From the NCBI GenBank assembly GCA_004282745.1, contig SHMT01000003.1:62001-126000 (forward strand): DNA of 64,000 nt, written 5' to 3'. Positions 8,796-31,812 of the stretch are shown here, in pieces (position 1 is the first letter of the stretch; every line of letters starts with the position of its first letter). Below the pieces are notes generated by a model that made no database searches, was not told the DNA's origin, and was given only the letters and a program-made list of their open reading frames with translations. A program made the translations under genes and the position numbers. This DNA is from Candidatus Scalindua sp. SCAELEC01 (GTDB taxonomy: Bacteria; Planctomycetota; Brocadiia; Brocadiales; Scalinduaceae).

Positions 8796-8925
8796 CGGTG
8801 GTTGAACGAAAACTGCTCAGATACAAGGCGCGTACTAATTTCGTAACCGGAGCATACTAAAGTACGTGAGGATTACGAAATTAGGACAGCAGCGCAATAG
8901 ATGAGTAGTTTTCGTTCAACCACTA
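8796..8925. mobile_element. MITE-like repeat family A, copy A2 (short form)
   Basis: The element runs from GTGGTTGAACGAAAACT to the inverse AGTTTTCGTTCAACCAC-TA, with a palindromic interior (CTAATTTCG ... CGAAATTAG). The left TA has decayed to CG. The right end supplies the stop codon of the formyltransferase gene: the final C and TA read TAG on the minus strand. Confidence 0.8.
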
Positions 8926-9876
8926 TTTGAATACGATATCCTTTGCAGACACCCCGAGAGATTCAATATAATCTCGTGGTATCTGGTTGTCGAGTAAACC
9001 TATCTCCATCAAATCACCGTCTGCCGTTACGGTGACTACCGAACCTGAATCGGTAACCTCTTGTATGCTGCCAACCAATTCACTCTCTCTCGATACCTCC
9101 CTGTCACACAACCGTGAATTACCTACAGTTACTTTCAATTGCTGCCCGTTTGGAATCTGTAATGATGCCACCGGTAGTTGGAAAGGTTCAAAAGAGAATG
9201 CACATATCTTTCTATGTATCTCGCTTCCTGTTTTACTCCAATCAATAATCTTATCGCGTACAAAATCAATGCTATTTTTGGTATAGTAAAGCTTTTGTGT
9301 CAAATCTTGAGGATGTGACTCTGTCGCCCCTTCCAGCAATGCGGGATACCTATCCATGAACAACTTAACGGCTTCTTCGCTCAGGGTATCAAACAATTTA
9401 CGTGATGTCGTATCATTTTCGACGGGTACAGTCGCTTGCGCAATTATCCCACCTTCATCAAATCCCTCCACCATGTGGTGTAAGGTCACACCTGCCTGCT
9501 TCTCACCATTTAGGATTGCCCAGGCAACAGGGTAACAGCCACCATAGCGTGGAAGGAGACCAAAATGCATGTTTACACACCCATGAAGGGGAAGGTTTAA
9601 GATTGCCGTCTTCAGTAAAGGACGATACTGAAATGAGAAAATATAATCAGGTTTCAAGGACGCAAGTACATCAACATAATCGTTTATATTACCCACAAAG
9701 ACCTTGATACGTCTCTCCGTACCAAAGGATATTAAGTTGGCTTGCCAATCTTCCGGAGCAGCCACTATTGCGCAGATCTCTGTATCTCTGCGACCGTACA
9801 AGAATTGAAGACACCGCTCTGCTACCCATTTCTCTCCACATACGACTACTCTCTTCTTCTCTTGATCATTTTTCAT
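8923..9876 (-). CDS. Methionyl-tRNA formyltransferase-like (formyl transferase family) enzyme
   Basis: This 317-residue protein has a Rossmann-like formyl transferase domain with the N-x-H and D catalytic pattern: CVNMHFGLLPRYGG (Asn and His) and VEGFDEGGII (Asp), plus WAILNGEKQAGVTLHHM. A C-terminal OB-like domain (about residues 200-317) follows as in Fmt. The setting among glycan genes suggests transfer of a formyl group from 10-formyl-THF to an amino sugar rather than to initiator Met-tRNA, which is inference; a second fmt may be the housekeeping copy. The TAG stop lies at the end of a family A repeat, so the original C-terminus could have been different. Confidence 0.7.
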   Translation of the reverse strand: MKNDQEKKRVVVCGEKWVAERCLQFLYGRRDTEICAIVAAPEDWQANLISFGTERRIKVFVGNINDYVDVLASLKPDYIFSFQYRPLLKTAILNLPLHGCVNMHFGLLPRYGGCYPVAWAILNGEKQAGVTLHHMVEGFDEGGIIAQATVPVENDTTSRKLFDTLSEEAVKLFMDRYPALLEGATESHPQDLTQKLYYTKNSIDFVRDKIIDWSKTGSEIHRKICAFSFEPFQLPVASLQIPNGQQLKVTVGNSRLCDREVSRESELVGSIQEVTDSGSVVTVTADGDLMEIGLLDNQIPRDYIESLGVSAKDIVFK

Positions 9877-9978: not shown

Positions 9979-10027
9979 CTATTATTACAGCAACGCAGTA
10001 GATGAGTAGTTTTCGTTCAAAACACTA
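9979..10027. mobile_element. MITE-like repeat family A, copy A3 (half element)
   Basis: Only one arm remains: ATTACAGCAACGCAGTAGAT, then GAGTAGTTTTCGTTCAAAACAC-TA. The matching left arm is absent. Its terminal CTA provides the TAG stop of the PilZ-CBM48 gene on the minus strand. Confidence 0.7.
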
Positions 10028-11143
10028 CAGACAAATGGCAGGATTTTCTTCTACATTATCCATTATTTTAATAGAGCAGTTTGACAAACCTATCAGTACA
10101 GAATCAACTAAGTAACCAAACTTATAGTTGTTACCGGGTTCCAGGTCTAGAGAGAGAGTATGGTCACCATTTCTCTCTTTTATCATAGGATTACAGTGAG
10201 AATCCCAATTGTTAAAATCTCCAACAATATTGACCCTATTTGCCATCGGAGCAGCAAACTTTGGTAGTCTGAACGTTACCCTTCGCAACTTTTCATTTTG
10301 TCGAAATACTTCTGTTTGATCGTACACTTCCTCTACCAGATTTTCTAATTTTTCATCAATGCGATTCTTTACCGTTTCCGTATGCTCTTCTCTCATCACG
10401 ACCGCTGAAGTATCGCTGTTTGTTACCGCGTCTCCTCTTTTCACAACCCCTGAGATGCTGTTTTCCGCCTCTTCACTCTTTATGGTATTTCCACAATCTC
10501 TCTTGTTCCTAATATTACTGGAACACTCTAGACAATATAATTGTCCATAATGTTTTCTTGCAAAACCTGTTGATATATCTTTTGCTGAAAGGCTTTTATT
10601 ACAACTACAGCATGCTCTCATGTCTGTAATATCTCTTTTTAGCAGACTCGAAGGGGTTTCTGGAATCTGTTCAGAAACAACTTCTCTCCTTTTCATGAAA
10701 CTGACCACTCTCACCAGTTTTTTAATAGAGAAATTCTTTTTTCTCTTTTTCTTTCTTACAATTTCCTCAATAGTTCTATTTATCTCAGACTTCGTTTGTG
10801 CACTCACCTCCGTAAACGCTATTGCGGTACAATACCCGGAAAGATGTTGACGCTCTTCAATCCGAACTATCCTCCCTACACAGTTAATAGTGGGCTGGGA
10901 TTGAGAAATTTTGAATCTAATATTGAGCATTGAATCAATCCCCAAACTCTTATCAAAGATAAAGACCATACCGCCTGCACTGAGATTTTTCACGGAAACT
11001 ATGTCCCATTCAGGATTTGAGTTTTCGTTGTCACTATCTTGCTTAGTATGAAACCGTGCAATGCAGGGAGTTTCAATCTCTCTATAATTTTTGTTTTCCA
11101 ACTCTATTCGAACATATTCCCTTTTTTCGGTATGACTGTACAT
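10025..11143 (-). CDS. PilZ - zinc ribbon - CBM48 fusion protein
   Basis: This 372-residue protein has three recognisable parts. Residues about 1-130 are a PilZ domain with both c-di-GMP motifs: R8xxxR12 (KREYVRI) and NLSAGG. Residues about 175-210 form a Cys4 ribbon (CCSCN ... YCLEC). Residues about 290-360 form a CBM48/AMPK-beta-like early-set domain with VNIVGDFNNWD and a final NYKFGYLVDS. Basic and polar linkers join them. PilZ senses c-di-GMP; CBM48 binds alpha-glucans in other proteins. A link between c-di-GMP and glucan or glycan handling is inferred. No catalytic domain and no membrane segment is seen. The stop codon coincides with the edge of a family A half element. Confidence 0.75.
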   Translation of the reverse strand: MYSHTEKREYVRIELENKNYREIETPCIARFHTKQDSDNENSNPEWDIVSVKNLSAGGMVFIFDKSLGIDSMLNIRFKISQSQPTINCVGRIVRIEERQHLSGYCTAIAFTEVSAQTKSEINRTIEEIVRKKKRKKNFSIKKLVRVVSFMKRREVVSEQIPETPSSLLKRDITDMRACCSCNKSLSAKDISTGFARKHYGQLYCLECSSNIRNKRDCGNTIKSEEAENSISGVVKRGDAVTNSDTSAVVMREEHTETVKNRIDEKLENLVEEVYDQTEVFRQNEKLRRVTFRLPKFAAPMANRVNIVGDFNNWDSHCNPMIKERNGDHTLSLDLEPGNNYKFGYLVDSVLIGLSNCSIKIMDNVEENPAICL

Positions 11144-11246
11144 AAAAATCTACCTCCTATTTCTCTTCGAATCAGGTTATTTATGATCACACCCTTCAAT
11201 CTTTTTTTACACACTCTCTGACAAACAGAACGCTTTACAAAGCACT

Positions 11247-12509
11247 CTACCCTTTCCCAACACCTGGCTGCCATTTTGTAATTTCCGTGTAGTAGGTAAA
11301 GAGCTCTCTAAAGAGACGCGTAATTTCATCACGACTTAATTCGTTTGTGGCAACAAAGGATTCATACTCACCTTGTCGCCCCTTTATCCAACTTTTCTCT
11401 TCAGGTATATCATAGATCTTAATATCAAATTGGTCAGGATGTTGATAAACTGGGGTACCAGGATAAGGCATAAATATGTTAAAGCCAAACTTTTGTGGCC
11501 GTACGTGTTCCATCCAGAGACGCGTCTCTTCAACCGTTTCATATGTTTCTCCCGGAAGCCCAATCATGAGAAAGACATTGGCCGTAATCCCCACCTCTTT
11601 GCATAAGCGAACAAATCTTGCATGATCTTCTACCGTCTCATTTTTATTTACACCATCCAAAATTTTTTGTGAACCACTCTCAACCCCTACACCAATTTCA
11701 ACGCACCCTGCCCCCTTCATTGCCAGAAGCATCTCCATAGTTGTTGTCGTCCTTGCGTAACAGCGCCACTTAATACCAAGTGATTTCATACCGCTACACA
11801 ACTCCAATAATCTATCTCTCCGTAAGGTAATAGTATCATCAAGAAACAAAAAGTGTTTGAACCCATAGTTGTGAATAAGATGTTCAAGCTCAGAGATCAC
11901 ATAAGAGGTACTATGAAAACGGGTACCACCCTGCCACACCTCCTTAGAACAGAAAGTGCAGGTAAACGGACACCCCCTGCTTGTAATCAGGGTGGTGCCC
12001 ATGCCATCTTCAATTTCATACCCAAATGAGCGTATGTCAACCAGATGTCGTGCAGGAAAAGGGATCGTATCCAAATCTTGAATGTAGGAAGCCTGGATGA
12101 CACAAGGTTGTTCTCCTTTCTCTCTCTGCGTAATCAATTGAAACAGTGCCTCTTCGCCCTCCCCCTTGATAACAAAATCAAATCCATCTTGAATACACTT
12201 TTCCGGCAATGATGATGGGAAAGCGCCTCCAATAGCGATAAGAGCTCTTGGGTTAAGTCGACGTAAAATGTTCAATATTTTCCGTGCCTGAGGATACTGC
12301 GGAGATGTTGACGTGATCCCATACATCTCTGCATCAGCATATGGTTCTAAGGCGGTTTCAAGAATTGATTCCCTATTAGCCAAATCGGCAACATTTATCG
12401 CAATTCCTTTATCCTCCAGAAAACCTGCAAGGTAAAGGATTCCAAGTGGTGGGAACGCCTTCTGATCAATCAAAAAAGGGCTGGGAGGTGAAAGCAAAGT
12501 TAACTTCAA
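11247..12509 (-). CDS. B12-binding radical SAM protein (BchE/PhpK-like class)
   Basis: This 420-residue protein has an N-terminal cobalamin-binding Rossmann domain (PPLGILYLAGFLEDKG ... IAIGGAFPSS ... KGEGEEALF) and then a radical SAM core with CPFTCTFC (CX3CX2C) around residue 180. The later GVESGSQKILDGVNK and LMIGLPGET motifs are typical of this class. Members methylate carbon or phosphorus or do other C-C chemistry on lipids and antibiotics; the substrate here is unknown. The start codon overlaps the stop of the oxidoreductase gene by 4 bp, so the two are translationally coupled and probably act on one pathway. Confidence 0.8.
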   Translation of the reverse strand: MKLTLLSPPSPFLIDQKAFPPLGILYLAGFLEDKGIAINVADLANRESILETALEPYADAEMYGITSTSPQYPQARKILNILRRLNPRALIAIGGAFPSSLPEKCIQDGFDFVIKGEGEEALFQLITQREKGEQPCVIQASYIQDLDTIPFPARHLVDIRSFGYEIEDGMGTTLITSRGCPFTCTFCSKEVWQGGTRFHSTSYVISELEHLIHNYGFKHFLFLDDTITLRRDRLLELCSGMKSLGIKWRCYARTTTTMEMLLAMKGAGCVEIGVGVESGSQKILDGVNKNETVEDHARFVRLCKEVGITANVFLMIGLPGETYETVEETRLWMEHVRPQKFGFNIFMPYPGTPVYQHPDQFDIKIYDIPEEKSWIKGRQGEYESFVATNELSRDEITRLFRELFTYYTEITKWQPGVGKG

Positions 12510-22067: not shown

Positions 22068-25000
22068 CTACTGGTTTGTGTTTGCCGATTGCACAAACTT
22101 CCGAATTCTGTTGTTATTATAGTCGGCGATATAGAGGATACCTGAGGCATCCACCGATACTCCGGTAGGATTGTAAAGCTGGGAATCCTCTCCAGGACCC
22201 CCATCTCCTGAATAACCGTACTTACCACTACCGACCACAGTCGTTATTATACCCACGGTATCTACCTTCCTGATCCGGTGGTTGTAGTAATCCGCTATGT
22301 AGAGGTTACCTATGGTATCTACAGAAACACCGGATGGTTTATAGAGTTGTGCGGCATCCGCAGGGCCTCCGTCTCCGGAATAACCCCTTGTTCCAATACC
22401 AGCTACCGTCGTTATGACGCCTGAGACATCCACCTTGCGTATCCGGTGATTACTTCCATCTGCTATGTAGAGGTTACCCGATGTGTCTAAGGCAACTCCT
22501 TCGGGATAATAGAGCTCTGCATCTGCTGCAGGGCCTCCGTCTCCAGAATAGCCTCTTATTCCATTACCGGCTACCGTCGTTATTATGCCTGCAGTATCCA
22601 CCTTGCGAATACGGTTGTTATAATAATCTGCTATGTAAACATTACCTGTCCCATCTACTGCAATACCAATTGGATAATTGAGTCTTGCATCAACAGATGT
22701 ATCGCCGTCTCCGGAATAACCCCTCGTTCCATTCCCGGCTACCGTCGTTATTATGCCTGAGGTATCTACCTTACGGACCCGGTGGTTGTAATAATCCGCA
22801 ATAAAGATATTGCCGGACAGATCCACCGCCACTCCTGTAGGATAATTAAGCCTTGCATCAACAGCAGCTGAACGAACCCGGTGGTTGTTGTAGTCTGCTA
22901 TGTAGAGATTGCCTGACCCATCTACCGCCGTACCATACGGATTATAGACCTGTGCCTGTATGGCAAGACCTCCATCACCTGAATAGCCATAGGTACCATC
23001 ACCGGCTACCGTCACGATCACCTCTTCTGCAACCGTGGGATCAAGTCCGCTCACGTACTCCACCAGGTTGAGGATTGTGTCACCATCTGAATCGAGAGAG
23101 GCATCTGATGCATCAAGAGGGTCAAGACCGTATGTCGTCTCCCAGTCATCGGGCATACCGTCACCGTCATCGTCCGTATCGATAACGTCCGGTATGAAAT
23201 CTCCATCCGTATCCACCGGAATCGAGAATGCATCAAACGGATCACTCCCCGCAGCTGACTCATCGCTGTCCAGGTAGCCATCGTTGTCATCATCCGTATC
23301 TGTAACATCTGAGACATAATCACCGTCGTTGTCCGCAGGCAGTGACGTTTCATCAAGGGGATCACTTCCCGCCGCACCCTCATCTGCGTTCGTATAACCG
23401 TCTCCATCAAAGTCAGGGTTTATCTTCCGTATTCGGTGGTTATTGTAGTCTGCGATGTAGATATTACCTGACACAGCCACTGTCACTCCGGTTGGATTAT
23501 AGAGCTGTGCGCCATCAGCAGGACCTCCATCTCCGGAATAGTCTCTCGTTCCAGTACCAGCTACCGTCGTTATTACGCCCGCAGTATCTACCTTCCTGAT
23601 CCGGTGGTTATTATAGTCAGCTATATAGAGGTTGCCTATGACATCTACAGAGACTCCGGAAGGATTATAGAGTTGTGCAGCATCTGCAGGGCCACCGTCT
23701 CCCGAATATCCATATGCACCGTTCCCGGCGGCCGTGGTTATTACGCCTGTTGCATCTACCTTGCGGATTCGGTTATTATTTCTATCCGCTATATAGAGAT
23801 TGCCTGTCGTATCTACTACCACCCCTGATGGATAATAGAGCTGAGCATCCAGTGCCAGACCACCATCTCCTGAATATCCGTATGTTCCATTACCTGCCAC
23901 CGTTATTATAATACCTGCTGTATTCACCTTGCGGATCCGGTGGTTATATCTATCCGCGATATAGAGATTACCTGAAGCGTCTAACACAACTCCTGATGGA
24001 TAATAGCGTTTTGCGTCTACTGCAGGGCCTCCGTCACCTGAATAGCCCCATGATCCATTGCCTGCCACCGTCGTTATTACACCTGATGTATCTACCTTTC
24101 GAATTCGATTATTATAGAAATCAGCTATATAGAGATTGCCGGACAGATCTACCGCAACTCCGGTAGGATTCCATAATTGCGCATCCACCGCAGGGCCTCC
24201 ATCTCCTGAATAACCATTTGTACCATTACCAGCTACCGTGGTTATTACGCCTGAGGTGTCTACCTTCCTGATCCGGTGGTTACTATAGTCCGATATATAA
24301 AGGTTCCCTGATGCATCTACTACCGTACCATATGGTTTATTAACCTGTGAATTCAATGCATAACCCCCATCCCCTGAATATCCACCGGTGCCTTCTCCAG
24401 CTATCGTTGATATTGCCTCTTCCGCAACCGTAGGATTAAGGCCATTTACTGATTCCACCAAATTGATGAAAGTGTCACCATCTGAATCGAGAGAGGCATC
24501 TGACGCGTCAAGAGGATCAAGTCCGTAAGTCGTCTCCCAGACATCCATCATACCGTCATTGTCATCGTCCGTATCGATAACGTCCGGTATTAAGTCACCA
24601 TCCGTATCCACCGGCACCGACGATGCATAAAGCGGATCACTACCGGCAGCAACCTCATCCGTGTCCAGGTAGCCATCGTTATCATCATCTGCGTCTGTAG
24701 CATCTGAAATGTAATCCCCGTCGTTATCCGCAGGTAGCGACGCTTCATCAAGGGGATCGCTTCCCGCCGTCCCCTCATCCACGTTTGTATAGCCGTCTCC
24801 ATCAAAGTCCGGATTTATCTTTCGAATGCGATTATTACCGGTATCCGCAATATACACACTTCCGAAACCGTCAACGGTTATCCCACGAGAAGAGGAGAGT
24901 TGTGCATCCACCCCGGGGCCTCCATCACCAGAATACCCATTTGTCCCGCTACCAGCCACAGTCGTTATAACGCCTGTTGCATCTACTTTGCGTATTCGAT

Positions 25001-26732
25001 AATTATATGAATCTATAACATAAATATTCCCAATATTGTCTACTGCAACTCCGTACGGGTAACGGAGATGAGCATTAACGGCAAGGCCACCGTCTCCTGA
25101 ATACCCATACGTTCCATTACCAACTACTGTTGTCATTATCCCTGATGTATCCACCTTGCGAATACGATTGTTACCGGTATCGGAAATGTAAAGACCTGAC
25201 GCGTCAACGGCTATTCCGGTTGGAAACTCAAGATCTAGCTGCGCATCCGTTGCCGGCCCACCGTCTCCTGAATACCCCCGTGTTCCATTACCGGCAACCG
25301 TTGATATTATGCCTGTTGTATCCACTTTCCGAATTAGATTGTTCCCACTGTCCGCTATATAGATATTCCCAACTCCATCAATACATACACCTGAAGGCAA
25401 GGCTAATTGGGCATTTACCGCCAGACCCTCATCCCCGGAATAACCCCATGTGCCGTCACCGGCTACAGTCGTTATTATGCCTGAGGTATCTACCTTACGT
25501 ATTCGATTATTTCCATTATCCGCTATATAATAGTTACCTGAAGAATCAAGTGCCACATCTGACGGCGAGGATAGTTGCGCGTCTTCTGCTATTCCCCCAT
25601 CTCCGGAAAATCCGCCAATGCCATTACCGGCCACCGTCGTTATAATACCTGAAGTATCCACCTTCCGTATTCGATTATTATGAGGATCTGCTATATACAA
25701 ATTCCCTGATACGTCAACAGCTGCGCCAATAGGACCGGAGAGTTGCGCGAATACCGCGCCACTCCCGTCTCCTGAATACCCAGCGGTACCATCACCGGCC
25801 ACAGTAGCTAAAGCCTCTTCCGCAACCGTGGGATCAAGACCATTTACCTTCTCTACCATGTTGATGAAAGTGTCCCCGTCCGTATCTAGAAATGCATCTG
25901 CCGGATCAAAAGGATCAAGCCCGTAAGTCGTCTCCCAGACATCCGGCATACCGTCATTGTCATCGTCAGTATCAATAATATCTATGATAAAATCGCTATC
26001 ATTATCAGCCGGCAGTGATGATGCATCAAGGGGGTCGCTGCCCGCCAGGATCTCATCATCATCAGAGTAGCCATCATTATCGTCATCGGTATCAAGGGGG
26101 TCGATGATACCGTCACCATCTTTATCGGGAGGTAGTGACGCTGGATCAAGAGGGTCACTGCCGTAATCTATCTCAAACGTATCTGTCCACCCATCACCAT
26201 CAAAATCATCCCTATCCGTTGTCGTAAAGGTCCATACAGGCCCTGCAGAAGAGGCATTACGGCTATCCCTGGATACAACCTGCCAGTAATAGGTGGTAAG
26301 TGGCTCTAATTGTCCGATATTATGACTGTTCTGAGTAAAAGTACCAATATGGGGCGGTGGAGAGGATTTACCAAAGTAGATATCATATACCACTATATCT
26401 CCGGAATCAGGATCTCCACCCGTCCAGCTGAGATCAGGAAACCGAAAAACACCAGTAGTTGAATTTGAAGGAGCTGGATTAGATGGTATATCTGGTGGAT
26501 TATTTGCTGGTGAGCCTGAAAGGATGGTCCTCTTTATATAACGGTTGCCTAGCGCATCGTAAACATATTCCACTTGCGTACCATCACCATACTCAGCCCT
26601 TATCACCCGATCGAGGTCGTCGTAGGTGTATAGAATCGTCTCTGTTGTTTGAGCTGTTAGCTTAGCAGTGCTTATTACGTAAAACATCATGCATACGCAC
26701 AGAGAGAGTATCGATATTTTTAAATTACTCAT
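22068..26732 (-). CDS. 1554-aa exported NHL-repeat / TSP3 protein with an RHS-type N-terminal stub
   Basis: A signal peptide (MSNLKISILSLCVCMMFYV) is followed by two YD repeats (TILYTYDDLDRVIRAEYGDG, YVYDALGNRY). A fibronectin-like domain (about residues 75-170) comes next, and then calcium-binding TSP3/DxDxDG stretches. I count 18 NHL units of about 56 residues, each with an NxxxxADxxNxRIRKVD core followed by ITTVAGNG and YSGDGGPA, in three blocks of six. The blocks are separated by TSP3 linkers (DPDFDGDGYTN-like to GLDPTVAEE). Each block fits a six-bladed propeller. In the third block the first unit has lost its linker (NHRVR joins SAAVDARLN) by an in-frame deletion. Likely a cell-surface binding protein. 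Upstream of it on the same strand is the RHS gene pair. Confidence 0.85.
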   Translation of the reverse strand: MSNLKISILSLCVCMMFYVISTAKLTAQTTETILYTYDDLDRVIRAEYGDGTQVEYVYDALGNRYIKRTILSGSPANNPPDIPSNPAPSNSTTGVFRFPDLSWTGGDPDSGDIVVYDIYFGKSSPPPHIGTFTQNSHNIGQLEPLTTYYWQVVSRDSRNASSAGPVWTFTTTDRDDFDGDGWTDTFEIDYGSDPLDPASLPPDKDGDGIIDPLDTDDDNDGYSDDDEILAGSDPLDASSLPADNDSDFIIDIIDTDDDNDGMPDVWETTYGLDPFDPADAFLDTDGDTFINMVEKVNGLDPTVAEEALATVAGDGTAGYSGDGSGAVFAQLSGPIGAAVDVSGNLYIADPHNNRIRKVDTSGIITTVAGNGIGGFSGDGGIAEDAQLSSPSDVALDSSGNYYIADNGNNRIRKVDTSGIITTVAGDGTWGYSGDEGLAVNAQLALPSGVCIDGVGNIYIADSGNNLIRKVDTTGIISTVAGNGTRGYSGDGGPATDAQLDLEFPTGIAVDASGLYISDTGNNRIRKVDTSGIMTTVVGNGTYGYSGDGGLAVNAHLRYPYGVAVDNIGNIYVIDSYNYRIRKVDATGVITTVAGSGTNGYSGDGGPGVDAQLSSSRGITVDGFGSVYIADTGNNRIRKINPDFDGDGYTNVDEGTAGSDPLDEASLPADNDGDYISDATDADDDNDGYLDTDEVAAGSDPLYASSVPVDTDGDLIPDVIDTDDDNDGMMDVWETTYGLDPLDASDASLDSDGDTFINLVESVNGLNPTVAEEAISTIAGEGTGGYSGDGGYALNSQVNKPYGTVVDASGNLYISDYSNHRIRKVDTSGVITTVAGNGTNGYSGDGGPAVDAQLWNPTGVAVDLSGNLYIADFYNNRIRKVDTSGVITTVAGNGSWGYSGDGGPAVDAKRYYPSGVVLDASGNLYIADRYNHRIRKVNTAGIIITVAGNGTYGYSGDGGLALDAQLYYPSGVVVDTTGNLYIADRNNNRIRKVDATGVITTAAGNGAYGYSGDGGPADAAQLYNPSGVSVDVIGNLYIADYNNHRIRKVDTAGVITTVAGTGTRDYSGDGGPADGAQLYNPTGVTVAVSGNIYIADYNNHRIRKINPDFDGDGYTNADEGAAGSDPLDETSLPADNDGDYVSDVTDTDDDNDGYLDSDESAAGSDPFDAFSIPVDTDGDFIPDVIDTDDDGDGMPDDWETTYGLDPLDASDASLDSDGDTILNLVEYVSGLDPTVAEEVIVTVAGDGTYGYSGDGGLAIQAQVYNPYGTAVDGSGNLYIADYNNHRVRSAAVDARLNYPTGVAVDLSGNIFIADYYNHRVRKVDTSGIITTVAGNGTRGYSGDGDTSVDARLNYPIGIAVDGTGNVYIADYYNNRIRKVDTAGIITTVAGNGIRGYSGDGGPAADAELYYPEGVALDTSGNLYIADGSNHRIRKVDVSGVITTVAGIGTRGYSGDGGPADAAQLYKPSGVSVDTIGNLYIADYYNHRIRKVDTVGIITTVVGSGKYGYSGDGGPGEDSQLYNPTGVSVDASGILYIADYNNNRIRKFVQSANTNQ

Positions 26733-26963
26733 ACGATTTTTGTTATAACTTTTATCAATTTACAATCAAAAGAGTCATCACTATAAACAATCCAAATATT
26801 TAAATTTGGGAAAATAACCTATTTTTGATCTAAAACCTCTACCGCTTTAATTTAAAAATGGATACATTTAGAATTTGGAAAGCACCGGTAAATTGTTACA
26901 AACTAATCCACGGAGATTCACAGACCGTTATCCTTTTTATCTCAAAAATACAAGTCTGATGCT

Positions 26964-27893
26964 TTACTGGGTTTCGCATTGTTTTGCTGCCTTTTCGATG
27001 TTTTTTACATGTTGCCCTGCTGGAGATTTGCTACTAATTTCTTTTGCTAAGTCGACCCAAGCCGTCCTTTGATAAATTCCATAGAAAATCGCAGCAGCAG
27101 TGAATGACCAACCCAAGGGGCCACTAAAAGTAATAGCCCCTGCTATAAGTGCAGTTTCAATTAACCCTGAAGTAATTGGATCCATCAACAGACCAAATGG
27201 ATCTATTAAATTAACCGGATTATTTTTGACAAACCCATACAGATTGATCCCCCCTATCTCTCCCAGTGGATCTCTGTTTATCCATCTACCAATTGATGGG
27301 GAATAGAAACGATAACCATAATATGACATCCCCAATGACTCATCATATCTCTTTGTAGAAAAACGGAATGGCTGGTCAAAGCTGCCGCTACTGGGCATCA
27401 GGTTGCCGTATGTATCGTAGGTGTAGGTTTCGACAACAGATTGAGTTTCATCCAGCAATGCAGAAACATTACCCTTTCCATCATAAAGATAGGCATAATC
27501 CTCCCCACCCTCTTTGAGGTTGAGAAGCCCACCGATACCTCCACCCATATTAATTCCCCAGACATACTCCCTGATAACGTTGTTTCCTAACACATCACGT
27601 TCCTGTATCGGGAGAAAATTATTACGGACAATTCTGACATTATCAACGAGAACCTCATCTTCATATTTTTTTATTTTAGCAAGTAAATCATCACCACTGT
27701 AGTGATATTCGGTCTTATGGACAACATCTCCGCTATCCGTATACTCCAGGGACTTGAGGCGGTCCTCAGCATCATAAGCGGCAGTAAAACGATAGCCGTC
27801 AGGCGTATATCCCTGGGTCATGTTACCGTCAGCATCATATGTGAATGAACGGTTCGGATTTGTGGAACTCAGAAGCTGGTTAACCCTGTTGTT
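26964..27893 (-). pseudogene. 3' part of the split RHS gene (RHS core and C-terminal tip)
   Basis: The frame continues from NNRVNQLLSSTNPNRSF, just past the insertion at 27894-28021, through YD repeats to the RHS core: FSTKRYDESLGMSYYGYRFY, then SIGRWINRDPLGEIGG and FVKNNPVNLIDPFG. The last about 75 residues are a hydrophobic tip (ITFSGPLGWSFTAAAIFYG), not a toxin domain I recognise. It no longer has a start, signal or promoter of its own; an internal GTG/ATG could give a short product from 27821. It was the C-terminus of the protein encoded at 27955-31812. Confidence 0.8.
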
Positions 27894-28021
27894 GGCCGCC
27901 AGAAAATGGCGGCCAATGCCCAGGATGAGGAGCGCATGCTAATAAAGCTTTTAGTTATCCATCACCTGGCCAACAAACGGATTGAGCAGTCGCAAAAACG
28001 CGCTCCTCATCCTGGGCATTA
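27894..28021. mobile_element. Double-palindrome insertion that breaks the RHS gene
   Basis: It contains one hairpin with an 8-bp stem (GGCCGCCA / TGGCGGCC, 27894-27914). A second has a perfect 21-bp stem, 27915-27935 against 28001-28021, with a 65-base loop; its core is GCCCAGGATGAGGAGCGC. Removing 27894-28015 (122 bp) rejoins SYDNA to NNRVNQLL in frame and restores a normal YD repeat, so this is an insertion and not native sequence. It looks like a REP/BIME-type or other small palindromic element without coding capacity. Confidence 0.75.
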
Positions 28022-31000
28022 TCATAACTGATAATCTCGTTTTGAAATGTCGTTATCGGGTTGCCGTTTGTTATGGTCGCGCTGGAGCGAACATCCTGCT
28101 GATTATAAATGTAGTCGTATTGATTAATGATTTCAGATGATGAGTTTTTGTTTGATATCTGTACCAGACGGTTCAGGGTGTCGTATTGATAGGTGGTAAC
28201 ACTGCCATTTGGGCGCGTGAGACCTTGAACGAGCGGATTGGGGTTTGAAACCTCATATGAATATGCGTAACTATTCGTCCCAACTTGAATGGTTAATAGC
28301 TTGTCCAGATCATCATAAGTGTATGAGACAGTTTGACCTCCCTGTGGTATAACATCTTTTACTCTACCAAGTTCATCGTATTGGTAGGTGATGGTATCGT
28401 TTGTCCACGGGCCGTTAACAGTCGTGCGCTGTGAATTATCATCATAGCCGTATGAATAAAGGCCAATTCCATCCTCCCTTGTTGTAACTCGATTATCGTC
28501 ATCATATTGGTATGTTACCCCGTGTGTATCATCAGAATAGGTAATTGAGGTACGATTATGATTTGCATCATATCCGTAATCGCTAACTATACCCCTCGCA
28601 TTAATGCGTGTTTCGAGAAGGCCTGCGCTATCGTAGGAAAATGTTGTGGATTTGCCATCCGCATAGCTTTTTTTAACCAGTCGGTTATCAAGATCGTATC
28701 CAAACGCAGTAATATTACTCATGGGGTCAATAAGCTGAACCATATTTCCGTCTTCATCATATACATATCTGGTAACCCGACCCCCGATATCCGTTGTTTG
28801 TGCAAGACGTTTGAGGGCATCGTATACATAGCTTGTGGCACGACCTGAACGGTCTGTAACACTGTCCACAAGGTGAGGGCAGCAGCCTGAATAGGTATAT
28901 GTCACGAACATGCCGTCCGGATAGGATATCTTCGTAACGTTATTCAAATTATTGTATTCATAGCTCTTAGTAAGTCCTGTCGCATCTGTATAAGTCGCTA
29001 CCCTGCCGATTGTATCATACGTAAAACGATCAGTTGTAGAACCGTCCCTCGACACACGCAGCAGCAAATTGCCGGAATCATACATATAATTGGTTACTAT
29101 GTCGAGTACACCTTCCGCATCTGTTCGGGAAGTTATCTGGCCGAAACTATTGTACGCAAAGGCTGTCTTGTTACCGAGACGGTCGGTAATAGATGTGATA
29201 TCGTGTGTTTCATTATAAGCCATCGTTACGATACCAAGTCCGTTCTGAATAGTGATCAGATCAATGCCATTTGATGCATATGTTATATTTGTGACATTAC
29301 CTTTTGCATCTGTTACGGATGTAATACGACCTGAATCATTGTATCGATACCTTGTGATATGTCTATGAGGATCAGTAACAGTTGTTAGGTTTCCATTGCT
29401 GTCGTACCCATAACTGACTGCATTACCTTCCGGATAGGTAATCTTTGTTATTTCACCTTTCCCACTTGCAGTAGTATTAAAGTCGTACCTGGTCTTGGGT
29501 ACGTTGCCGCGGAAGTTATTGGTGTTATAATCAATATAGTTCGTATAATATCTGGGACTCACATACCAGCTATATCGACTGTACGCGTTGTAATGGTACT
29601 CCTCCTTCCCACCCAACGGGTCCGTAATAGTAATCCGATAATTCTCCCATGTACCTCCTCCAGGAGGCGGATATGGGTCGGAACCATTGCGAAGGCCATC
29701 AGCAGGTTCTATATAAAACGTCCATGTCCCTCTTTCATTCTCAATACTCGTAAGATAGACATCCGCGTCATAGGTGAGGGTTGACCAGTAACCACCCATA
29801 TCAGTAATCTTAGTCAGATTGCGGTTGATATCATATTCAAAAACAGTTGAACGACCGAAAGGATCGGTAACCTGAGTTACCAACCCGTTTGCGTCATATG
29901 TCAGTGTGGTATCTCTGCCCATTGGGTCTGTAATGGTTGTAAGCTCCACATTGGAATTATAACGAAAGGTAAGGCTCTGCCCGTAAGCATCTTTTTCCTC
30001 AACCAGAAATGGTTGTAGGCTGTTTGTTCCGGAGGGGATGTCATAGATATATACGGTATCGTCAGGAAACCGAAGTTCAAAGTGGTTTTCAGATATTCTG
30101 GTAAGTTTATTATGAATACTATAGGGACTGTTATAGCCTCCTAAACCATCCGGTGTATATACATCACGCCTGCCATCCGGCATATAAATTGTGACATTAT
30201 CACCGGTGTCAACCACAAGATAACTTCCATAGTTAAACTGCCATTTATTGCCAAAAGGTTCATTTCGTGCTATGGCGGACTGGGAATTATAGCTTACTCT
30301 GATCCTTACCGATGGTCCGACAGGACTGCTGTACCACATAGGAGTATCTGAAACAAAGAGATTCATATTTTTCATATTTACTTGCCATGACGGCGCTCCA
30401 CAGTCACCACAACCGCTGGCACTATTTCTGTTTCCCCCACCACAACACCCACCATAGAGTCTCCCCATTTCTCCATCATCCAACCTTATTCCGGGAAGGT
30501 CCATTTTATTAGAAAACACGAGGGCATTGCCACTCCACTCTTTCGAAAATTCATCAGAGGTCTGGTGAAATCTGCTGCCACTCTGCGGGTCAAAGATAGC
30601 AAGAGCATTATTATCTAATTTCTCAAGCACCCAATAATGTCCGCTATCACCTTTACTCCTCCCATTTATCTGGACGATTGCGGGCAGGGGAATATCTTTA
30701 AGTTCCGGGATTGTCAAACGAATACCGGAAAGATTGTATCCATAACCCGCAGCTATCGTCTTGAGCTCTTGTAAGTTCTGTCCCTTAATCGAAGTTGGCA
30801 CTATTTCCATTACCTTTCCGGCAACTGCCCCCTTCCCATCTTTTTTCATTACATAAGCCAAGGCCTGTAAGCCGCACTTAAGCAGAGCTTCTTTTTCAGC
30901 TTCGTATCGAGATATCCTCTGTACCCAGTGCGAGGCATAAGTGCGGTCTCTCCAGCTTATACTGTCGGTTTTCAGACCTGAGAACTGCCACTCCGCATCC

Positions 31001-31812
31001 TTAAAATTATTTTGAACCACCTTAAGGACACCAAGCCGGAGCCGTGCCTTGTTCTTCAGCATCTGGGCTCCAACATAATCGTTATCCCTATTGCTCTCAA
31101 TGATTTGACGAAAACTCTCCTCGGCCTCACTATAACGGCCGTTGTAGCGGGCATCACAACCTACGTGTAAGATAGCTTCAGATGCCCAGGGACTTTCAGG
31201 GTAGTCGGCAACATGCTGCCTAAACATCGTAACGGCCTTTTTGTAATTGTGTCTGTTCCACTCCTGGATCGCCTTGCCAAATGAGAGATTCATCTCGTCA
31301 ATCCTTTTTGCCACCTCCTGAATCTTTCCATCTGCTAATGGTGTTTTGGTTAAATCACGGGAATTAATATCATAGGTTGGATAGAGGAGGCCACCCAATT
31401 GTCCGGCAGCCATGAGCTCCTCCGTGGTAGGAGGTCTTGAGAGATCCAGGGGTCTTACGTTCGGCCTTACGTCAGCAATCTTTGGGGGCTTTGCACTGGT
31501 AACAGCTCCTTCAGATACCTTAACGGGTGAATTTGTCGAGTCTGACGGCACTAAGTCTGCTTTTACCTTGGATCCTTTTGATGTCTTTGTTATCTCCTTA
31601 GGGCCCTCTTCGGAGTCCTTAACAGGTTGTTTTGTCGAATCTGAGAGACCTACACCTGTCTTTACGCCAAATACTTCAGATGGATGAGGACCTTCAAAGC
31701 CCCCTTTCAGGACTAAATAAAAAACAAGTGACAGGCAAGCAATTACAAAGGGTGCAGAAATGATAGAGTATTTGATTTTTTGGCCTGTTTTTTTGTCTTT
31801 GACATATTTCAT
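27955..31812 (-). CDS. RHS-repeat protein with N-terminal TPR and C39-peptidase-like domains, truncated by an insertion
   Basis: This 1285-residue protein has a membrane anchor at residues 15-37 and a Pro/Lys/Ser-rich stretch to about 130. A TPR/Tol-Pal-like region (about 170-300; NYKKAVTMFRQHVADYPES) follows. Next is a C39-like domain with CGLQALAYVM (Cys), GHYWVLEKL (His) and FDPQSG (Asp), about 315-440, and a Cys-rich loop GGCCGGGNRNSASGCGDCG near 465. A long series of YD repeats fills residues about 600-1260. The last residues (DEERVFATAQSVCWPGDG) come from the insertion at 27894-28021, which brings a stop and cuts off the RHS core. RHS proteins form a beta-cage around a toxin; a C39 domain could process or export it (inference). 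It was once one gene with 26964-27893. Confidence 0.8.
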   Translation of the reverse strand: MKYVKDKKTGQKIKYSIISAPFVIACLSLVFYLVLKGGFEGPHPSEVFGVKTGVGLSDSTKQPVKDSEEGPKEITKTSKGSKVKADLVPSDSTNSPVKVSEGAVTSAKPPKIADVRPNVRPLDLSRPPTTEELMAAGQLGGLLYPTYDINSRDLTKTPLADGKIQEVAKRIDEMNLSFGKAIQEWNRHNYKKAVTMFRQHVADYPESPWASEAILHVGCDARYNGRYSEAEESFRQIIESNRDNDYVGAQMLKNKARLRLGVLKVVQNNFKDAEWQFSGLKTDSISWRDRTYASHWVQRISRYEAEKEALLKCGLQALAYVMKKDGKGAVAGKVMEIVPTSIKGQNLQELKTIAAGYGYNLSGIRLTIPELKDIPLPAIVQINGRSKGDSGHYWVLEKLDNNALAIFDPQSGSRFHQTSDEFSKEWSGNALVFSNKMDLPGIRLDDGEMGRLYGGCCGGGNRNSASGCGDCGAPSWQVNMKNMNLFVSDTPMWYSSPVGPSVRIRVSYNSQSAIARNEPFGNKWQFNYGSYLVVDTGDNVTIYMPDGRRDVYTPDGLGGYNSPYSIHNKLTRISENHFELRFPDDTVYIYDIPSGTNSLQPFLVEEKDAYGQSLTFRYNSNVELTTITDPMGRDTTLTYDANGLVTQVTDPFGRSTVFEYDINRNLTKITDMGGYWSTLTYDADVYLTSIENERGTWTFYIEPADGLRNGSDPYPPPGGGTWENYRITITDPLGGKEEYHYNAYSRYSWYVSPRYYTNYIDYNTNNFRGNVPKTRYDFNTTASGKGEITKITYPEGNAVSYGYDSNGNLTTVTDPHRHITRYRYNDSGRITSVTDAKGNVTNITYASNGIDLITIQNGLGIVTMAYNETHDITSITDRLGNKTAFAYNSFGQITSRTDAEGVLDIVTNYMYDSGNLLLRVSRDGSTTDRFTYDTIGRVATYTDATGLTKSYEYNNLNNVTKISYPDGMFVTYTYSGCCPHLVDSVTDRSGRATSYVYDALKRLAQTTDIGGRVTRYVYDEDGNMVQLIDPMSNITAFGYDLDNRLVKKSYADGKSTTFSYDSAGLLETRINARGIVSDYGYDANHNRTSITYSDDTHGVTYQYDDDNRVTTREDGIGLYSYGYDDNSQRTTVNGPWTNDTITYQYDELGRVKDVIPQGGQTVSYTYDDLDKLLTIQVGTNSYAYSYEVSNPNPLVQGLTRPNGSVTTYQYDTLNRLVQISNKNSSSEIINQYDYIYNQQDVRSSATITNGNPITTFQNEIISYDNAQDEERVFATAQSVCWPGDG

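Follow-up and report, generated by a model that had tools for sequence, protein, structure and literature searches.

Domain organization of the window protein

The gene at positions 10025-11143 of the window, by which we mean the whole 64,000-nucleotide stretch of DNA analyzed here, raises the question of whether c-di-GMP could control alpha-glucan binding within a single protein. PilZ is the standard domain for sensing c-di-GMP, as CBM48 is for recognizing glycogen. The host is placed within the Brocadiales in the family of Scalindua, an anammox bacterium. A sequence-only reading of the locus had described a PilZ domain with intact RxxxR and NxSxxG motifs, a Cys4 ribbon and a CBM48 domain in 372 residues. 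This description was borne out by the open reading frame, by Pfam for PilZ and CBM48, and by an alignment of the cysteines. The frame lies on the minus strand, as do all features of this gene and of its two neighbors given below. It begins with ATG, and its coordinates agree exactly with those of the earlier reading. A Shine-Dalgarno-like AGGAGG, read directly from the sequence, is located at 11153-11158, 9 bases before the ATG. In the AlphaFold model of the protein, the PilZ barrel is confident and the ribbon moderate, and the confidence of the CBM48 domain drops toward the C-terminus.

The PilZ domain covers residues 1-130 (10754-11143) according to Pfam, AlphaFold and Foldseek. It scores 34.5 bits against the PF07238 cut-off of 22.5, and its barrel is modeled with pLDDT > 90. 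Both ligand motifs were located in the protein sequence and the alignment, with R8 and R12 in RxxxR (residues 8-12, 11108-11122) and N53, S55 and G58 in NLSAGG, the NxSxxG motif (residues 53-58, 10970-10987). The best Foldseek matches are the PilZ domains of YcgR and Alg44 with c-di-GMP bound (5y6g, 4rt1). The beta barrel, RxxxR and [DN]xSxxG are common to the window protein and the PilZ receptors of PF07238 such as YcgR, Alg44 and BcsA, whereas the output, a flagellar, alginate or cellulose component in those receptors, is a ribbon and a CBM48 domain here. Compared with most of its close PilZ relatives, two of which have shorter insertions, the window PilZ has about 10 additional residues between RxxxR and the barrel, an extension not seen in the known PilZ receptors. 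These residues could disturb c-di-GMP binding. Since the host genome contains 10 GGDEF matches, c-di-GMP is expected in the cell and its synthesis is likely.

The damaged sugar site of the CBM48 domain

The CBM48 domain was assigned to residues 286-372 (10028-10288) by Pfam and by a conservation count. The match to PF02922 reaches 27.0 bits against a cut-off of 22.4 but covers only profile positions 19-66 of 83, and Foldseek matched the domain to branching enzymes. The fold with its FNNW motif is shared with the glycogen-binding domain of AMPK beta and the N-terminal CBM48 of GlgB. Unlike in those two, the part after D347, including the equivalent of AMPK W133, is unconserved in the window protein. 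Measured against 12 related proteins of the same bacterial family, the domain retains 27 of 34 well-conserved positions up to D347 and 2 of 19 beyond it, and the diverged C-terminus (residues 348-372, 10028-10102) is also modeled by AlphaFold with lower confidence. The sequence-only reading mentioned neither this abrupt loss nor the additional residues after RxxxR. The first site tryptophan (AMPK W100) is present as W313 in FNNW, and the lysine of YKF, K341, which is equivalent to AMPK K126, is retained. The second site tryptophan (AMPK W133) is replaced by I351. Its counterpart is tryptophan in 12 of 12 stand-alone relatives, which align to AMPK beta through W133.

In AMPK, single changes at W100, K126, W133, L146 or T148 each markedly cut glycogen binding (PMC2642990). 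The sequence-only reading had the window CBM48 bind alpha-glucan, and this claim was not upheld: ordinary binding is doubtful because the W133 equivalent and most positions after D347 are gone. The same reading had named the lack of the carbohydrate-site aromatics as a point that would speak against it, and we found one of the two site tryptophans lost and the other, W313, kept. Weak glucan binding may persist, given W313 and K341. Stand-alone copies of CBM48 adjoin glgB in four Scalindua-family genomes, and these copies make an alpha-glucan link of the relatives plausible. The case of GlgX in Streptomyces (PMC9530166) likewise backs such a link for this type of CBM48.

With somewhat better than even confidence, we favor the reading that the window protein is a c-di-GMP receptor acting via protein contacts, with a CBM48 domain that has lost its usual alpha-glucan binding. 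Its main rival is a decaying gene, in which insertions or deletions would have hit the 3' end of an older fusion and function would have been lost. Conservation does stop abruptly after D347, and a candidate out-of-frame remnant, CTDRFVKLLY (10071-10100), lies at the expected place and resembles the conserved ADKYVKSPY. Another CBM48 copy of the host, a stand-alone gene, bears an in-frame stop just before the conserved YxFRYLID (L004, near position 1759), and the 74 further genomes from the class contain no orthologue of the fusion. However, the likeness of the remnant is suggestive only, as its score was equalled by 25 of 3000 shuffles and by 19 of the 1704 other segments of 75 bases in the window, or about 1% by chance. 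A frameshift-remnant test of the CBM48 3' end at the DNA level was not above chance. A local frameshift is a lead only, because shuffles match it and the DNA-level test was negative. All 372 codons are open, both PilZ motifs and the four cysteines are kept, and the Shine-Dalgarno site is good, all of which argue that decay is unlikely. As the assembly is a draft, the final 75 bases of the gene may contain sequence errors.

A two-domain PilZ-CBM48 family in Nitrospirota

The three-part architecture is absent from the 80 CBM48 loci taken from GTDB genomes. One of these loci (L074, Nitrospirae bacterium Glo_13) encodes a protein of 264 residues with PilZ (45.6 bits) and CBM48 (31.2 bits) and no ribbon. 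Each of the four Nitrospirota genomes tried contains a full-length relative of this protein, and so do 4 of a sample of 296 genomes from across Nitrospirota (1e-50) and 22 of the 47 genomes of one Nitrospirota order, the latter with 26 copies (1e-45). Samples of 392 Planctomycetota and 345 Desulfobacterota genomes gave no PilZ-CBM48 protein at 1e-40, each a weak negative because the search was run without a positive control. The first reading did not recognize the combination and had named an absence from other genomes as a point that would speak against its view. The three-part form is indeed a singleton, seen in one genome of the searched set, but the two-part form is common in one Nitrospirota order. 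CBM48 is also found in an unexpected pairing with a helix-hairpin-helix in Saprospiraceae and Lewinella (L059:3-752, L068:3875-4600, L122:44-730).

The Nitrospirota alignment has 18 rows representing 16 distinct proteins, which are 37-92% identical. RxxxR and both tryptophans are kept in every row. So are the S and the G of [DN]xSxxG, which begins with either N or D. These proteins, of about 250-290 residues, resemble the window protein in having PilZ at the N-terminus and CBM48 at the C-terminus. They differ from it in having a short linker without a ribbon and in keeping all residues of the c-di-GMP and glucan sites. Because all sites are kept, an adaptor between c-di-GMP and alpha-glucan is the natural reading, and it is credible from the alignment that the family forms c-di-GMP-responsive alpha-glucan-binding adaptors. 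No common neighbor genes were seen around the Nitrospirota genes, so the context does not reveal their function; one copy adjoins a diguanylate cyclase gene. The AlphaFold model of one member, with a mean pLDDT of 57.8, was too low in confidence and was set aside.

The Nitrospirota proteins bear on the view of the sequence-only reading, in which the window protein is a working c-di-GMP-controlled alpha-glucan-binding protein, since they share both of its end domains and retain every site. In Streptomyces, c-di-GMP regulates GlgX in glycogen breakdown, which also favors that view, although there c-di-GMP binds the enzyme itself and no PilZ-CBM48 fusion is involved (PMC9530166). The retained FNNW tryptophan and YKF lysine point in the same direction. 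However, the second site tryptophan is gone, the C-terminal part differs at 17 of 19 conserved positions, and single site changes each markedly lower glycogen binding in AMPK (PMC2642990). We consider a working glucan binder less likely still than a decaying gene.

Cys4 ribbon and predicted basic helix

The PilZ domain is connected to the ribbon by a long basic helix predicted by AlphaFold (residues 115-157, 10673-10801), and the basic stretch KKKRKK also precedes the ribbon. The zinc-ribbon-like Cys4 motif (residues 176-215, 10499-10618) was defined by alignment with four stand-alone relatives. Its spacing in the window protein is C178-x2-C181-x22-C204-x2-C207, and these four cysteines are invariant in the five aligned proteins; metal binding is putative. 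No Pfam family exceeded its cut-off for the motif, and the only match was ArfGap, at 14.6 bits against a cut-off of 28.7. The stand-alone relatives are small proteins of the same bacterial family, and their C-terminal half resembles membrane segments. A small protein with a Cys4 motif and probable membrane segments (L008:1270-1659, minus strand) is encoded next to an NtrC-type regulator. Proteins of this type recur in nine further genomes of the bacterial family and match no Pfam family over its cut-off.

The helix with KKKRKK ahead of a ribbon with all its cysteines intact would also suit a c-di-GMP-responsive regulator that binds nucleic acid or protein, with the ribbon and the basic helix (residues 115-157) as output and the CBM48 domain as incidental. 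However, the Pfam search gave no DNA-binding family, and the relatives of the ribbon are small membrane-like proteins without a known role. We rank such a regulator below the working glucan binder, as improbable. In the receptor reading that we prefer, the PilZ domain would bind c-di-GMP, the ribbon and helix would relay the signal through protein contacts, and the CBM48 domain, without its usual alpha-glucan binding, would be vestigial or serve as a scaffold.

Origin of the fusion

All three modules also occur alone in the host genome, with identities of at most 46% for the PilZ proteins, 45-46% for the small CBM48 proteins and 39% for a Cys4 protein. The three-part architecture did not turn up in any of the 74 further genomes of the host's class, and the 16 other genomes of the family contain only single modules or different combinations. 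A search of viral contigs and plasmids gave no relative. In the PilZ tree, the window domain and the Scalindua-family PilZ proteins are split from the Nitrospirota fusions with a support of 100/100. In the CBM48 tree, built from the part up to D347, the window protein groups with Scalindua-family CBM48 proteins (90/83) and lies outside the Nitrospirota clade (90/75), a moderate support below the tool's own 95/80 mark. Because both trees separate them, the two halves of the window protein look local and assembled apart from the Nitrospirota family.

The gene lies between those for a B12-binding radical SAM protein upstream (11247-12509) and a formyltransferase-like protein downstream (8923-9876). 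In two relatives (G004 and G006), the orthologues of these neighbors are adjacent, about 230 and 90 bases apart, without the fusion gene. The fusion is best regarded as a lineage-specific assembly because it is absent from the other 74 genomes and from this site in the two relatives. The sequence-only reading had also drawn on the location of the gene in a glycan gene cluster. Glycosyltransferase genes are present nearby, but the argument is weak because the flanking genes adjoin without the fusion gene in G004 and G006. The fusion gene is no regular member of that cluster. Elsewhere in the window (22068-31812), very large repeat proteins were seen by eye: one of 1554 residues in which the unit VAGNGTxGYSGDGG recurs and, alongside it, proteins with YD repeats (Rhs-like).

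In the origin that goes with the receptor reading, three locally available modules, PilZ, the Cys4 ribbon and a small CBM48, would have been joined inside the Scalindua family. An assembly or base-calling artefact behind the fusion or its odd C-terminus is very improbable: the draft genome (4.6 Mb) has 104 contigs and 4.66% contamination and the fusion was seen only once, but the gene lies deep inside a contig of 181,824 bases, its flanking genes have orthologues that adjoin in two relatives, and each module is of the kind that the host itself carries.

The Scalindua family shuffles PilZ, CBM48 and receiver modules. A Candidatus Brocadiaceae genome from Hainich groundwater encodes a receiver-CBM48 fusion (L015:1414-2094, minus strand, the same protein as L050:3644-4324). 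A PilZ-receiver fusion with a broken RxxxR was found in the same bacterial family (L010:925-1797, minus strand).

Implications for c-di-GMP signaling and carbon storage

In a literature of 5.39 million papers, PilZ and CBM48 co-occur in one paper, once each, and no description of their fusion was found. The analysis yields a conserved Nitrospirota PilZ-CBM48 family in which both sites appear intact from their residues, together with a one-off three-part fusion. We hypothesize that PilZ-CBM48 proteins represent a general coupling of c-di-GMP to stored glycogen, in which the receptor would dock on or leave glycogen or recruit glycogen enzymes. Such a coupling would have arisen at least twice, in Nitrospirota with the sites kept and in the Scalindua family with a Cys4 ribbon added. 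We regard this proposal as tentative, and as possible rather than probable. With its damaged sugar site, the window protein is less suited to a test. A conserved PilZ-CBM48 family with intact sites would provide a directly testable link between c-di-GMP and carbon storage beyond Actinobacteria, where GlgX is known (PMC9530166).
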